Made by a program: the position numbers and the translations under genes. A DNA stretch of 12,557 bases, taken from contig PATE01000031.1 in assembly GCA_002712305.1 (NCBI GenBank), forward strand, positions 1 through 12,557, given 5' to 3'. Positions 2,899 to 10,048 of the stretch are shown here, in pieces. The DNA comes from Gemmatimonadota bacterium. Its GTDB lineage: Bacteria; Latescibacterota; UBA2968; UBA8231. The stretch's first letter is position 1. Each line of letters starts with the position of its first letter. The notes under the pieces are model-generated. The model did no database searches. It was not told the DNA's origin and saw nothing but the letters and a program-made list of their open reading frames with translations.

Positions 2899-4368
2899 AT
2901 GGCGACGCTGCATGGCACCATCATCGACGCACAGACCAACGAAAAGATCGACGCCAAGGTGCATGTACTGGACCCGGGTGGAAACTTCGTTCATCCGGGC
3001 GGGGCGATGCTGAAGAATGGACCGGGCACACCCTTCTTCTTCGCCCCCGACGGCGAGTTCACCGTGAACACGGGCCGAGGCAGAACGGATATCCTCGTCG
3101 AACGCGGGACTGAGTACAAACCCCAGCGTGTTGTGCTCGAAGCTCCCGCATCGGGCATTGTGGACACGGAGATTCGCATCGAGCGGTGGGTGCATCCCCA
3201 GCAGAACCATTGGTATCCGGGCAACACCCACATCCACTACGATGAGAACGAAACGCGACCCGACGATCGGCTGGGTATCGACTGCTCCGTCGAGGGGTAC
3301 AATGTCACCGTCGTGAGCATCCTCGACCGCCGGCAGCTACCCTACGCGAGCAACAAGTTTCCCATCGGCGTGATGAATGACTTCACCACCGCCCACCACG
3401 TGGTCGACATTGGCGAAGAGAATCGTCACTATGGCGAAAAGTCACCTTGGGGGATGGGGTACGGGCACGTCATGTTCCTCAACATCCGCAACCTCGTGCA
3501 GCCCGTGAGCCGGGGGCACACACTCACTGCCCAGTTCGATCCGGACTACCCACCACTGTGTACGTGCTGCGACGATGCCATCGACCAGGGCGGTCTGGTG
3601 ATCTGGTGTCACAATGGTCGAGGTATGGAGGCACCCGTGGCAGCCGCTCTTGGCAAACTCGACGCCTTCAATCTCTTCGATCCGTTCTGGATGGATCCCG
3701 AATACGACCTGTGGTACAAGCTGCTCGACTGTGGCCTCCGACTGCCGGCCTCTACGGGGACGGACTGGTTCGTCTGTTCCAACAATCGTGTGTACGTGCA
3801 CACGGAAAAGGAATTCTCTTACGAGAGTTGGATCGATGGCATGAAAAAGGGGCGCACCTTCATCACCAACGGTCCCGTCATCGACATGACCGTCAATGAC
3901 GCCCCGATCGGAGCTACCCTTCTGATGGATGGGGGTGGGATCCTCGAAGTGGAAGCGACCTTTCAGTCTCACTATCCCGTCGATGCGGTAGAGATCATCG
4001 TGGATGGCAGGGTCGTGCACCGAGAAACCGCCGCCGGTGGTGGTTTCGATTCGGGGGATGCCTTTTCCGGCAGCGTGCGGTGCCAGGCGGTGGCCGAACG
4101 TGACGGTTGGGTGGCGGCGCGGCTTTGGGGACACAGTCGAGACAGCTTCAACCAGTCCCTCTACGCCCATACGAGTCCGACGTGGTTCTCTTGCGGTCGA
4201 CCGTCAGGGAATCGACCCGACAGTGCCCGCTTCTTCCTCGATTCCATCGATGAATCGCTGAAGTGGATCGACACGGTGGGACGATACAACACCGATGACC
4301 AGCGGGAAGAGGTCCGCGATCTGTTCCGACGGGGCCGCGAGGCGTACGCCGAACTCGAGAAGAACTGA
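2899..4368 (+). CDS. CehA/McbA-family metallohydrolase with N-terminal carboxypeptidase-regulatory-like domain
   Basis: A 489-residue protein. Residues 1-95 look like a beta-sandwich of the carboxypeptidase regulatory-like type (GTIIDAQTNEKIDAKVHV, then FFFAPDGEF). From about residue 100 a PHP-type metal-dependent hydrolase follows, with candidate metal ligands in GNTHIHYDEN (H111, H113), GEENRH (E173/E174), GYGHVMFLN (H190), WCHNGRG (H238) and TGTDW (D289). This order matches the CehA/McbA family, named after a carbaryl hydrolase, and the related CehA-type proteins of unknown substrate. Residues 330-430 resemble another beta domain (VDAVEIIVDGRVVHRE). There is no signal peptide. AGGA at 2886-2889 precedes the ATG by 9 nt. 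It is the last gene of the operon and pairs with the C45 amidase-like enzyme, suggesting sequential hydrolysis of one compound, which is inference. Confidence 0.85.
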   Translation: MATLHGTIIDAQTNEKIDAKVHVLDPGGNFVHPGGAMLKNGPGTPFFFAPDGEFTVNTGRGRTDILVERGTEYKPQRVVLEAPASGIVDTEIRIERWVHPQQNHWYPGNTHIHYDENETRPDDRLGIDCSVEGYNVTVVSILDRRQLPYASNKFPIGVMNDFTTAHHVVDIGEENRHYGEKSPWGMGYGHVMFLNIRNLVQPVSRGHTLTAQFDPDYPPLCTCCDDAIDQGGLVIWCHNGRGMEAPVAAALGKLDAFNLFDPFWMDPEYDLWYKLLDCGLRLPASTGTDWFVCSNNRVYVHTEKEFSYESWIDGMKKGRTFITNGPVIDMTVNDAPIGATLLMDGGGILEVEATFQSHYPVDAVEIIVDGRVVHRETAAGGGFDSGDAFSGSVRCQAVAERDGWVAARLWGHSRDSFNQSLYAHTSPTWFSCGRPSGNRPDSARFFLDSIDESLKWIDTVGRYNTDDQREEVRDLFRRGREAYAELEKN

Positions 4369-4396: not shown

Positions 4397-4427
4397 GAGG
4401 CCGGCGAATCGATGATCCGCCGGCCTC
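4397..4427. terminator. GC-rich hairpin between convergent units
   Basis: A perfect 10 bp inverted repeat, GAGGCCGGCG (4397-4406) and CGCCGGCCTC (4418-4427), with an 11 nt loop, 28 bp after the CehA-type stop. No good T run follows on either strand, so it is a hairpin-type terminator candidate for the plus-strand operon and possibly also for minus-strand transcripts arriving from the trxB side. It lies about 40 bp beyond the stop of the trxB 3' relic, where an ancestral trxB terminator would sit. Confidence 0.55.
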
Positions 4428-4466
4428 GTTCTGCCTATGTGGGACTGTCTGTGTAGGACGTGTCGG

Positions 4467-4508
4467 TTACTCTTGTTCAGCCAACCAGCGTTCGGCTTCG
4501 ATGGCGGC
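4467..4508 (-). pseudogene. Relic of a second trxB 3' end (last 13 codons plus stop)
   Basis: Read on the minus strand, this stretch encodes [13 protein letters not shown] followed by TAA, exactly the last 13 residues of the intact trxB product whose stop is 68 bp away. The two DNA copies agree at 35 of 42 positions. Six differences are synonymous (GCT/GCC, GCA/GCC, GAG/GAA, CTG/TTG, CAG/CAA, GAA/GAG) and the seventh swaps TAG for TAA. Upstream the frame reads GAG, CAC and then a TGA, so no longer protein remains. A simple tandem copy would show random changes; purely silent change means both copies diverged as working genes. It is therefore best read as the leftover end of a displaced or recombined trxB allele. 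Confidence 0.85.
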
Positions 4509-4534
4509 CTCGTGTCACTTCGAAGGAAATCGCC

Positions 4535-5476
4535 CTATTCCTGTTCAGCCAGCCAGCGCTCTGCTTCGATGGCAGCCATACAGCCCGTGCCCGCCGCGGT
4601 GACCGCCTGGCGGTAGACGTGGTCCTGCGCATCACCGCAGGCGAAGACGCCCTCCACATTTGTCCGCGTCGAGTCGGGCGCGGTATGAAGATATCCCGTT
4701 TCATCCATGTCGAGGACACCCTCGAAAAGAGATGTGTTGGGTTTGTGACCGATGGCGACGAAGAAACCCTCGCAGGGGATCTCGAAGCTCTCGTCCGTGT
4801 CGACATTCTTCAACCTTGCGCCCGTGACCTCCATACCATCGTCCGAACCCAGTACTTCCTCGACCACAGCGGGTGTCACGAATTCGACCTTCGGATTGTC
4901 CCGCACGCGCTGTTCCATGATTCTGGATGCACGGAACTCGTTACGGCGATGCACGACGGTCACCTTCGAGCCGAACTTCGTCAGATAGTTCGCTTCCTCC
5001 ATGGCGGTGTCGCCCCCACCGACGACGACGATCTCCTTGTCGCGAAAGAAGAACCCATCGCAGGTGGCGCAGGCCGAAACGCCGTGACCCATCAGACGCG
5101 TCTCCGACTCCAGACCCAGCAGACGAGCCGAGGCCCCAGTGGCGATGATGACCGAGTCTGCCGTGTACGGTGTTCCCTCAGCGTCGATCTTGAAGGGCCG
5201 CTCGGAGAAATCGACGGCTGTCACCGTCTTGAACTGCGTCTCAGCACCAAACTTCTGCGCTTGTTCGCGGAATTTCTCCATCATCTCCGGTCCCATGATC
5301 CCGTCGGGGAAACCGGGGTAGTTCTCCACATCCGTAGTGATCGTCAACTGGCCACCGGGCTGAGTTCCCTCCAGCACGAGGGGCGCAAGATCCGCCCGTG
5401 CCGTGTAGAGGGCGGCGGTGAATCCAGCGGGCCCTGATCCGATGATCAGAACCTTGTAGTGCTTGGCGTCTGCCAT
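4535..5476 (-). CDS. trxB: Thioredoxin-disulfide reductase
   Basis: A 313-residue low-molecular-weight thioredoxin reductase that passes electrons from NADPH through FAD to thioredoxin in the cytoplasm. The FAD motif GSGPAG is at 13-18, [18 protein letters not shown] at 40-57, and the redox-active CATC at C136-C139. The NADPH loop [10 protein letters not shown] is at 153-162 with HRRNEFRAS at 176-184, and the C-terminal FAD motif FACGDAQD at 278-285. Length and order are typical of the family. The ATG at 5476 is chosen because it starts the usual short lead before the FAD motif and has GGAG 10 nt upstream. The frame is open further up to 5572, but that would add 32 atypical residues across the promoter-like hairpin. 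It follows the 2-hydroxyacid dehydrogenase gene by 116 bp and ends in TAG, beyond which lies a relic of a second copy of its 3' end. Confidence 0.97.
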
Positions 5477-6755: not shown

Positions 6756-7190
6756 TCAGACGACCAGATCGACCCCATCCGATGGCGCAACGGGCTCCGG
6801 AGCAACGGGCGCCTCCGGTGCGGGTCGTTCGGCGGCGGCCACGTTGGCCTCGGCGACCTCCACTCGATCCACCTCGGTGCGAGTCCGTTCAGGCGGCGCG
6901 GCGGCGGGTTCGGGCGTGGGACTGACACGTCCCTGGCCGCGTGTCTCGAGACCTTCTCCAGCGACGATCCCGTCCAGGCGATTGACCTGGCGCTGTAGAT
7001 CGTTGAACCGGATGCGCAGCACCGTGCGTTCCGTCTGACTCGTGCCGTCAGAGTCGATACGGCTCGCCACAGCTTCTAGACTGGCAACCAGTCGTCCAAG
7101 CCGCTGTTGGGCCCGTTCACGTGGCGATGCATTCGGATTGGTGGCCGCGTTGGGTGCGGCAGCGGCGGCGTTGATATCAACGGTAGCCAT
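6756..7190 (-). CDS. Small Ala/Pro-rich protein with a helical core, function unknown
   Basis: A 144-residue protein I do not recognise. It starts with an Ala/Asn-rich low-complexity stretch (residues 8-22), has a charged, probably helical core from about 24 to 78 that includes FNDLQRQVNRLDGI (62-75), and ends in a Pro/Ala/Glu-rich tail (90-136). No cysteine, signal peptide or membrane segment is present. The core faintly resembles the helical segment of flagellins that reads FxxLxxxIDRI, but the length and tail are wrong for a flagellin and I give that no weight. The ATG at 7190 has a strong GAGGTG site 5 nt upstream, and a clear terminator follows the stop, so it is very likely a real single-gene unit. 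It is divergent from the RidA-like gene across 160 bp. Confidence 0.7.
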   Translation of the reverse strand: MATVDINAAAAAPNAATNPNASPRERAQQRLGRLVASLEAVASRIDSDGTSQTERTVLRIRFNDLQRQVNRLDGIVAGEGLETRGQGRVSPTPEPAAAPPERTRTEVDRVEVAEANVAAAERPAPEAPVAPEPVAPSDGVDLVV

Positions 7191-7296
7191 GATTCACCTC
7201 GTGGGGCGGAAGGTGTGCGTGGCATCCATGCCCACCTATCAGATTCCAGCAACCCGTGGGTTGAAGAAAAATCATCCAGGGCGTACCTTGCAACTC

Positions 7297-7312
7297 ATTG
7301 TACTGGTACAAT
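7297..7312. promoter_or_regulatory. Perfect 16 bp palindrome, candidate operator/promoter of the RidA-like gene
   Basis: ATTGTAC-TG-GTACAAT, two 7 bp arms around a 2 bp centre, lies 38 bp upstream of the RidA-like ATG in a region shared with the divergent Ala/Pro-rich gene. Its right half contains TACAAT (7307-7312), usable as a -10 for the plus strand, and TTGCAA at 7288-7293 sits just upstream, although the 13 nt spacing to TACAAT is too short for a standard pair. Such symmetry is typical of a site for a dimeric helix-turn-helix repressor. No such regulator gene is in the window, so the binding protein is unknown. Confidence 0.5.
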
Positions 7313-7350
7313 ATGCGGTATTCGTGCAAAGTCAACCACAAAAGTCTACT

Positions 7351-8103
7351 ATGCTCATTGCCAACCCCCAGGGCCACTATCACTTCCTCAAGGGGATCGA
7401 TCCCTACTCCTGTGGCGTCGTGGCCGATCCAGGGTACGAGATTGTCTTCGTCACCCTCCGGTCACCGACGTCCTGGAAGGAGGGATTCCACCTAATCGAT
7501 CGTCATCTGGAAAAAGCGGAATGCGATCGTACATCACTGTGCAGCATTCAGTTACGATGCCCTGCGCCCTACCCGATGCAGGGATTCATCGACTTCAATG
7601 AGACCTACTGTCAGGTGCTGAAGGATTGGGGGCTCTACCTCGACAACCTCAATCCCCTTGCACGAACGAATGTCTCTCCCGCCTATTCGCCCCCGACGGA
7701 GCCGCAGATGCACGCCTTCGGCTACATCGTGAAGGCCGAATCCGACCAGGTGAAGCCCAGTCTTGTCGTCGCTGGTGCGGGCGAATTGCGCGACGGTGTA
7801 CTCGATGAGGCAGGCATTATCTGTCGTGGGGACACCTCACCTGAGGCGATGCGGAAGAAGGCGGATTACGTGATGAAGGTGATGGAGACCCGTCTCGACG
7901 GATTGGGCGCCCGCTGGGATCTGCTGAACGTTATCAATGTTTACACCGTCTATCCCATCGACGGGTTTCACGAAGACATCATCCTGAACCGTCTCGGCCC
8001 CGCTCGTCGCATGGGTGTCCATCTGCACGACACCCGACCACCGGTGGAAGGCATCGATTTCGAGATGGACATGCGGGGCGTCAACCGAGAGTTGGTACTG
8101 TAA
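7351..8103 (+). CDS. RidA/YjgF-like protein, possibly 2-aminomuconate deaminase type (CnbZ-like)
   Basis: A 250-residue protein. Opening residues MLIANPQGHYHFLKGI, then PYSCGVVADPGYEIVFVTL (18-36), and a second half with VVAGAGELRDG (139-149), PEAMRKKADYVMKVMETRL (164-182) and NVINVYTVYPI (193-203) follow the pattern of long RidA-superfamily proteins. RidA proteins hydrolyse reactive enamines and imines; the long branch includes 2-amino-5-chloromuconate deaminase CnbZ. The call to this branch is from memory of the pattern and moderately sure; the substrate is not. The ATG at 7351 starts at the family N terminus. No good ribosome site is seen, and a GTG at 7324 is an in-frame alternative. The frame stays open upstream to 7042 but would run over the divergent gene. 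It overlaps the convergent phosphopantetheinyl transferase gene by 23 bp. Confidence 0.75.
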   Translation: MLIANPQGHYHFLKGIDPYSCGVVADPGYEIVFVTLRSPTSWKEGFHLIDRHLEKAECDRTSLCSIQLRCPAPYPMQGFIDFNETYCQVLKDWGLYLDNLNPLARTNVSPAYSPPTEPQMHAFGYIVKAESDQVKPSLVVAGAGELRDGVLDEAGIICRGDTSPEAMRKKADYVMKVMETRLDGLGARWDLLNVINVYTVYPIDGFHEDIILNRLGPARRMGVHLHDTRPPVEGIDFEMDMRGVNRELVL

Positions 8104-9304: not shown

Positions 9305-10048
9305 TCACGGACTGATCTGCACCGCGAGGTCGAAGAAGTCGGCAAAGAGGAAGAAGTCGGCAAAGAGGAAGAAGTCGGGGAAGTTGACGGAGCCGTCCCC
9401 ATTGAGATCAAACCGTGCATCCTGCGTGCCGAAGGCATCCGCACAGAGGAAGAAGTCGTCGAGATTCACCCCGGCCGAGCCGTCGAAATCACCCGGCAGA
9501 TCCAGTTCAATGGCATCGCTGCGTAGTGCCACGAGAGCCGAAACCGCACGGATCTCGTCCTCCACATCCAGGCGGTCGAGGGTTACTTCCGTCAGCACGA
9601 TCTCCGTCTGGCCGTCGAAACCCTCCTGCACACGGAATCGCAGGGACCCCAGCGTGGCGGGCCCACTCGCCCCCGAACCACCACTCAGCGATGTCCCTCC
9701 CACCGTGAGTTGCCCGGGCAACTGACTCACCAACGGCACCAGCCTCGGCAGGAAGTCACCCTGCACAAAACTGCCCGGTACATAGGCGACTTCCATCGCG
9801 TCGAAGGAGAGCTGTCCCGATTATCCACGAACCGGTTGCCTGTCGACGATGACCAGTTCGATCGTATACAGCAGACCTACCGCAACGTTTCCGAGCATGC
9901 GAAGACCCTGGTTTCCTGGCCCGACGATGAAGTCGAGCAGCACGGGCGAATCACCCTCGCCGCCAAGGGCCTGCAGCTCCAGTTCTACCGTGCTTCTTCT
10001 CGAGGGCGTCCTGCGAATCGTCATCGTTGACTTCGATCTGGACCCTGA
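9305..10048 (-). pseudogene. Cohesin-like plus dockerin-like secreted protein, C-terminal part, split by an in-frame TAA
   Basis: One continuous frame with a single TAA (9821-9823). Before the stop: VELELQALGGEGD, then LLDFIVGPGNQGLR and YTIELVIVDRQPVRG. After it: SGQLSFDAMEVAYVPGSF, LTVGGTSLSGGSG, and LGSLRFRVQEGF. Together they form one cohesin-like beta-sandwich; the stop replaces the residue, probably Trp, expected in RG-x-SGQ. The end is a dockerin-like pair of EF-hand-type repeats, GDFDGSAGVNLDDFFLCADAFG and FDLNGDGSVNFPDFFLFAD. Such proteins are exported and bind or anchor at the cell surface, but no start codon with signal peptide is found: the frame opens at another TAA (10049-10051). 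A different frame upstream (reading VQIEVNDDDSQDAL) may be a further shifted piece. It was probably longer and is now decayed. Confidence 0.75.
9332..9378. repeat. 18 bp in-frame tandem repeat in the dockerin-like end
   Basis: The unit GAAGAAGTCGGCAAAGAG occurs at 9332-9349 and 9350-9367, with a partial third copy (11 bp) at 9368-9378. On the minus strand each unit adds LFADFF, making FFLFADFFLFADFF after the second calcium loop. Because 18 is a multiple of three, the frame is kept. This is a perfect copy, so it is recent, unlike the older TAA interruption or the lost 5' end. Confidence 0.85.

Follow-up and report, generated by a model that had tools for sequence, protein, structure and literature searches.

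The window, by which we mean the whole stretch of 12,557 nucleotides analysed here, belongs to the 52-kb contig C52 of a Latescibacterota draft genome (G000) that comprises 146 contigs and is probably a MAG. Its minus strand carries an intact trxB gene, and the identity of this gene is genuine, as TIGR01292 was matched with 401 bits against a curated cut-off of 343. On the same strand, 26 bases beyond the TAG of the intact gene, sits an orphan 42-base tail of trxB, which is followed by a GC-rich hairpin and a convergent gene (Table 1). The hairpin has no T run and was therefore not called an intrinsic terminator.

Table 1. Features of the trxB 3' region in window coordinates
Feature	Position	Strand	Basis
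Intact trxB, thioredoxin-disulfide reductase, 313 aa, stop TAG	4535..5476	-	TIGR01292 match, ORF
3' tail of intact trxB; end sequence GAATAGGGCGATTTCCTTCGAAGTGACACGAGG	4535..4576	-	Repeat search, codon alignment
Spacer between intact stop and scar, 26 nt, GGCGATTTCCTTCGAAGTGACACGAG	4509..4534	-	Unique in genome
Candidate junction microhomology GGCCG	4505..4509	-	Shuffle test, post hoc
Orphan trxB 3' tail (scar), 13 residues, stop TAA; tail sequence GCCGCCATCGAAGCCGAACGCTGGTTGGCTGAACAAGAGTAACCGACACG	4467..4508	-	Repeat search, codon alignment
GC-rich hairpin between convergent genes, 14-nt arms, 93% complementary	4397..4427	.	Hairpin search
Convergent CehA/McbA-type gene, 3' of scar and hairpin	2899-4368		

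The two trxB tails

A repeat search of the window placed the two tails 68 bp apart with 86% identity across 42 aligned bases, and the codon-by-codon alignment resolved this into 35 identical and 7 different bases with no insertions or deletions; the two share identical runs of 11, 10 and 6 bp. Both tails translate to the same 13 C-terminal residues followed by a stop codon. Six codon pairs differ synonymously (orphan/intact: GCC/GCT, GCC/GCA, GAA/GAG, TTG/CTG, CAA/CAG and GAG/GAA), and the stop is TAA in the orphan and TAG in the intact gene. The homology ends within the codon preceding the first Ala, in which the last G alone is shared. The original prediction had described this pair by its coordinates, its 68-bp offset, its six synonymous codons and its two stops, and that description proved exact, with every element reproduced by our alignment.

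The 68-base offset puts the orphan outside the trxB reading frame, so that it does not extend the gene, and a role as a read-through extension is thereby ruled out. Judged from the sequence, the intact trxB works and the orphan tail is inert.

Silent-only divergence and selection

In 20,000 simulated runs with a mild transition bias, the tail was duplicated, after which the intact copy was kept under selection while the orphan changed neutrally. Seven differences that left the orphan translation unchanged arose in ~0.015% of the runs (P ~1.5e-4), a value that reflects about three hits and is to be read as an order of magnitude only. In the real tails, all seven of the seven differences are silent or stop-to-stop, as expected if the partial duplicate stems from a functional allele. 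The spacer and the sequence beyond the scar showed no similarity to each other (local p 0.50, semi-global p 0.70), in a comparison where homologous non-coding sequence could be unrecognisable after large divergence. Since the silent-only pattern is improbable under neutral decay, and since the spacer and post-scar sequences are unlike, both tails are almost certain to have evolved as parts of working trxB genes, by an argument that draws on 42 bases. The claim that both had once been under protein-level selection is therefore borne out by the simulation.

Local duplication of the trxB 3' end with ordinary divergence thereafter would be the simplest event within a single genome; given the simulated probability and the unlike flanking sequences, we regard it as very unlikely. 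In its plain form, a 68-bp tandem duplication, it was rejected on these same two grounds.

Uniqueness of the repeat within the genome

A gapless local-repeat scan (at least 33 of 42 matches within 1.2 kb) was applied to 1.54 Mb of the genome and returned 29 pairs of that strength. By inspection, the other listed pairs lie inside reading frames or represent low-complexity, simple or dispersed repeats, paralogues and tRNAs. The rarity of such pairs in 1.54 Mb indicates that the repeated trxB tail is not due to chance. In a translated tail scan of 1,655 long ORFs (1.89 Mb, ~40% of the genome), trxB was the sole gene with a perfect tail copy, and the same scan found none in 362 ORFs of the congener G001. 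The absence of a second perfect case from these scans led us to reject a systematic phenomenon, and within the scanned share of the genome the scar is most likely a sporadic one-off. The tail and spacer sequences occur nowhere else in the genome and the tail pattern had no match in the viral contigs searched; a mobile repeat was rejected for these reasons.

The same scan bears on the integrity of the assembly. A draft in 146 contigs, probably a MAG, is a source in which two co-occurring strains might have been joined into a chimera at the trxB locus, but a mixture of strains should yield many such joins, and no other was seen in the 1,655 ORFs over 1.89 Mb. Moreover, the ~5-7 bases shared at the join are far below usual assembly overlaps, the join contains no Ns, and the gene order across it agrees with that of G001. 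We consider such a chimera distinctly unlikely.

trxB in relatives

The genus is sampled by two genomes, G000 and its congener G001. The trxB of G001 shares 91% amino-acid and 76% nucleotide identity with the window gene and lies in the same gene order; it ends in a single tail (AAIETERWLEAQE*) and has no orphan, so that the scar most likely arose in the window lineage. In none of the relatives examined was trxB followed by a second tail, and when 64 phylum genomes were searched with a degenerate pattern for the exact peptide tail, the two tails of the window were the only matches. The absence of the exact tail elsewhere in these genomes suggests that the second allele came from within the species or from a near relative yet to be sampled, or else that it is an old paralogue of trxB; the same search returned no donor allele. 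In the family members that have trxB, each genome holds one strong copy, a sample to which the genus contributes only two genomes. Similarity of trxB falls with kinship, and the relatives are ranked alike by both.

These observations bear on a second route to the scar. In the stem lineage, an old duplication or a merodiploid insertion might have set two whole trxB genes in tandem, and the copies might have diverged silently until a deletion removed the downstream one except for its final 13 codons. The end product would be the same as that of an allele swap, and both the silent-only divergence and the non-homologous spacer would be accounted for. However, a second strong trxB is present in no family genome, the next matches in G000 and G001 reaching only ~30 bits, and no relative with two whole tandem genes was found among the family members having trxB, two of which represent the genus. 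Truncated tandem duplicates resemble the scar in leaving a partial downstream copy of a gene; unlike them, the scar has diverged only silently, which requires the lost copy to have been under selection for a long time, and the pair is present in no relative. We view this route as unlikely, albeit one that deserves some weight.

Direction and extent of any replacement

Identity to G001 at fourfold sites was 0.31-0.42 for all comparable window genes, with trxB at 0.37 and the neighbouring 2-hydroxyacid dehydrogenase at 0.42. No gene among them was an outlier in silent divergence, at sites that are saturated and lack the power to exclude a differing history. With saturated silent sites and no outlier, silent divergence points to no donor, direction or tract length and gives no support to a foreign origin of trxB or the dehydrogenase. 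The original prediction had suggested that the intact trxB may be the incoming copy and that the upstream GRHPR-like gene, i.e., the 2-hydroxyacid dehydrogenase, was possibly imported with it. Neither suggestion was upheld: the silent sites of the two genes are saturated and alike, and trxB similarity follows kinship. It had also been proposed that a relative with a single trxB closer to the scar tail would speak for replacement. Of the 7 diagnostic sites, G001 shares 5 with the intact tail and 1 with the scar, the opposite of that expectation; this is a weak indication, as the sites are too few to name a donor.

Origin of the orphan tail

The explanation that we prefer, with a probability of roughly 0.5, is that the orphan is the 3' remnant of a second trxB allele, left by homeologous replacement with an illegitimate join on one side, which is the anatomy of homology-facilitated illegitimate recombination (HFIR). 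The second allele, once functional, would have come from the window lineage itself or one very close to it. DNA carrying the homeologous trxB would have paired by homology with the resident locus on the trxB side, and its other end would have been joined illegitimately at a short GC-rich candidate microhomology, GGCCG, of ~5 bases. The junction would connect a point ~26 nt past the stop of one allele with the other allele at the final G of the codon that precedes its AAIEAE stretch. On this reading, donor 3' sequence with ACGAGGCCG at its end would meet resident GGCCGCCATCG with an overlap of about five bases. Microhomologies of 3-10 bp have been reported at HFIR junctions (PMC6382021); the candidate at the trxB junction is of a size within this range and would fit HFIR. 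We infer that the two alleles came from different cells, and the direction of transfer and the mechanism of joining are likewise inferred.

The sequence ACGAGGCCG (4505-4513) recurs at 4421-4429 in the downstream hairpin, with a shuffle p of 0.016 for a motif that was chosen after looking. The start of the hairpin with this same sequence would fit a donor that had a similar hairpin after its trxB. A lineage-typical GAGGCCG hairpin was considered as the origin of the 9-mer found at both places and discarded, because hairpins of this type were not more frequent than control stems.

HFIR is known from laboratory transformation of Acinetobacter, Pseudomonas stutzeri and Streptococcus pneumoniae, whereas for the trxB scar it is deduced from one assembled sequence; the two would have in common a side explicable by homology, a join at a few shared bases on the other and a partial duplicate. 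DprA is present in G000. Of 25 family genomes, 19 have ComEC (PF03772), G001 among them; it was not found in the incomplete MAG G000, where its absence is probably due to incompleteness and possibly to loss. The presence of these proteins does not establish that transformation took place. In G001, ComEC and trxB share a contig and are ~27 kb apart.

Taken as a whole, the proposal of an allele-replacement scar stands in part. It is supported by the silent-only divergence and by the one tail of G001, but a tandem duplication cut by deletion would give the same product.

The 3' end of a housekeeping gene is often the target of a tyrosine integrase. An element might accordingly have integrated at the trxB 3' end, provided a synonymous replacement tail and later been lost save for 26 bp. 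Site-specific integration leaves direct repeats from similar sequences of 2-60 bp, and a repeat at the 3' end of a housekeeping gene is what an attachment site leads one to expect (PMC4701971); the identical runs shared by the trxB tails would fit such repeats. Nevertheless, a profile search detected no tyrosine integrase (PF00589) on the 52-kb contig, and none was present on the relatives' trxB contigs among the matches listed. The 26 bp between the repeats are far too short for an element, the repeated tail occurs in no relative examined, and thioredoxin reductase was not found as an attachment site in the literature searched. The attachment sites at gene 3' ends used by ICEs, islands and prophages are similar to the trxB scar in having a direct repeat at the 3' end and a reading frame kept by the replacement tail, and the scar differs from them in having no element, no nearby integrase and so little sequence between its repeats. 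Loss of such an element is in our judgement highly improbable. Highly improbable, too, is an undescribed small mobile element that integrates at the trxB 3' end and makes the gene whole again with a synonymous tail of its own, so that 4467-4576 would be the remnant of a lost one.

If the orphan is indeed a scar of allele replacement, it provides single-locus evidence that an uncultured Latescibacterota lineage swaps housekeeping genes with relatives in which about half of the silent codons are different, and that one end of a join can be illegitimate. The scar alters no biology by itself, and it is of use as a recombination marker once strain genomes are at hand. It is most likely a clear but minor case of ordinary bacterial recombination, an event of a known kind.

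Neighbouring observations

Several dispersed repeats of 53-85 bp with ATCCCGTCCG-like and AGAGGA-like motifs were observed on contig C63 (13 kb) of the same genome, near 3809, 5006, 6367, 6702, 7966, 8610 and 9224 of stretch L192. This contig is unlike the other sampled contigs and is possibly a contaminant or an unusual element.

Within the window, the long ORF at 7042-8103 (+) had no Pfam match. A sub-stretch of it has a GC3 of 0.39, compared with 0.66-0.74 in the other window genes, and this difference may be an artefact of the coordinates and frame used. The small protein encoded at 9305-9796 (-) also had no Pfam match; it ends in a dockerin-like NLDDFFLCADAFG...FPDFFLFADFFLFADFF motif and contains an in-frame internal duplication. 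DNA coding for similar DDFFAFAE motifs recurs on contig C10 (stretch L138).
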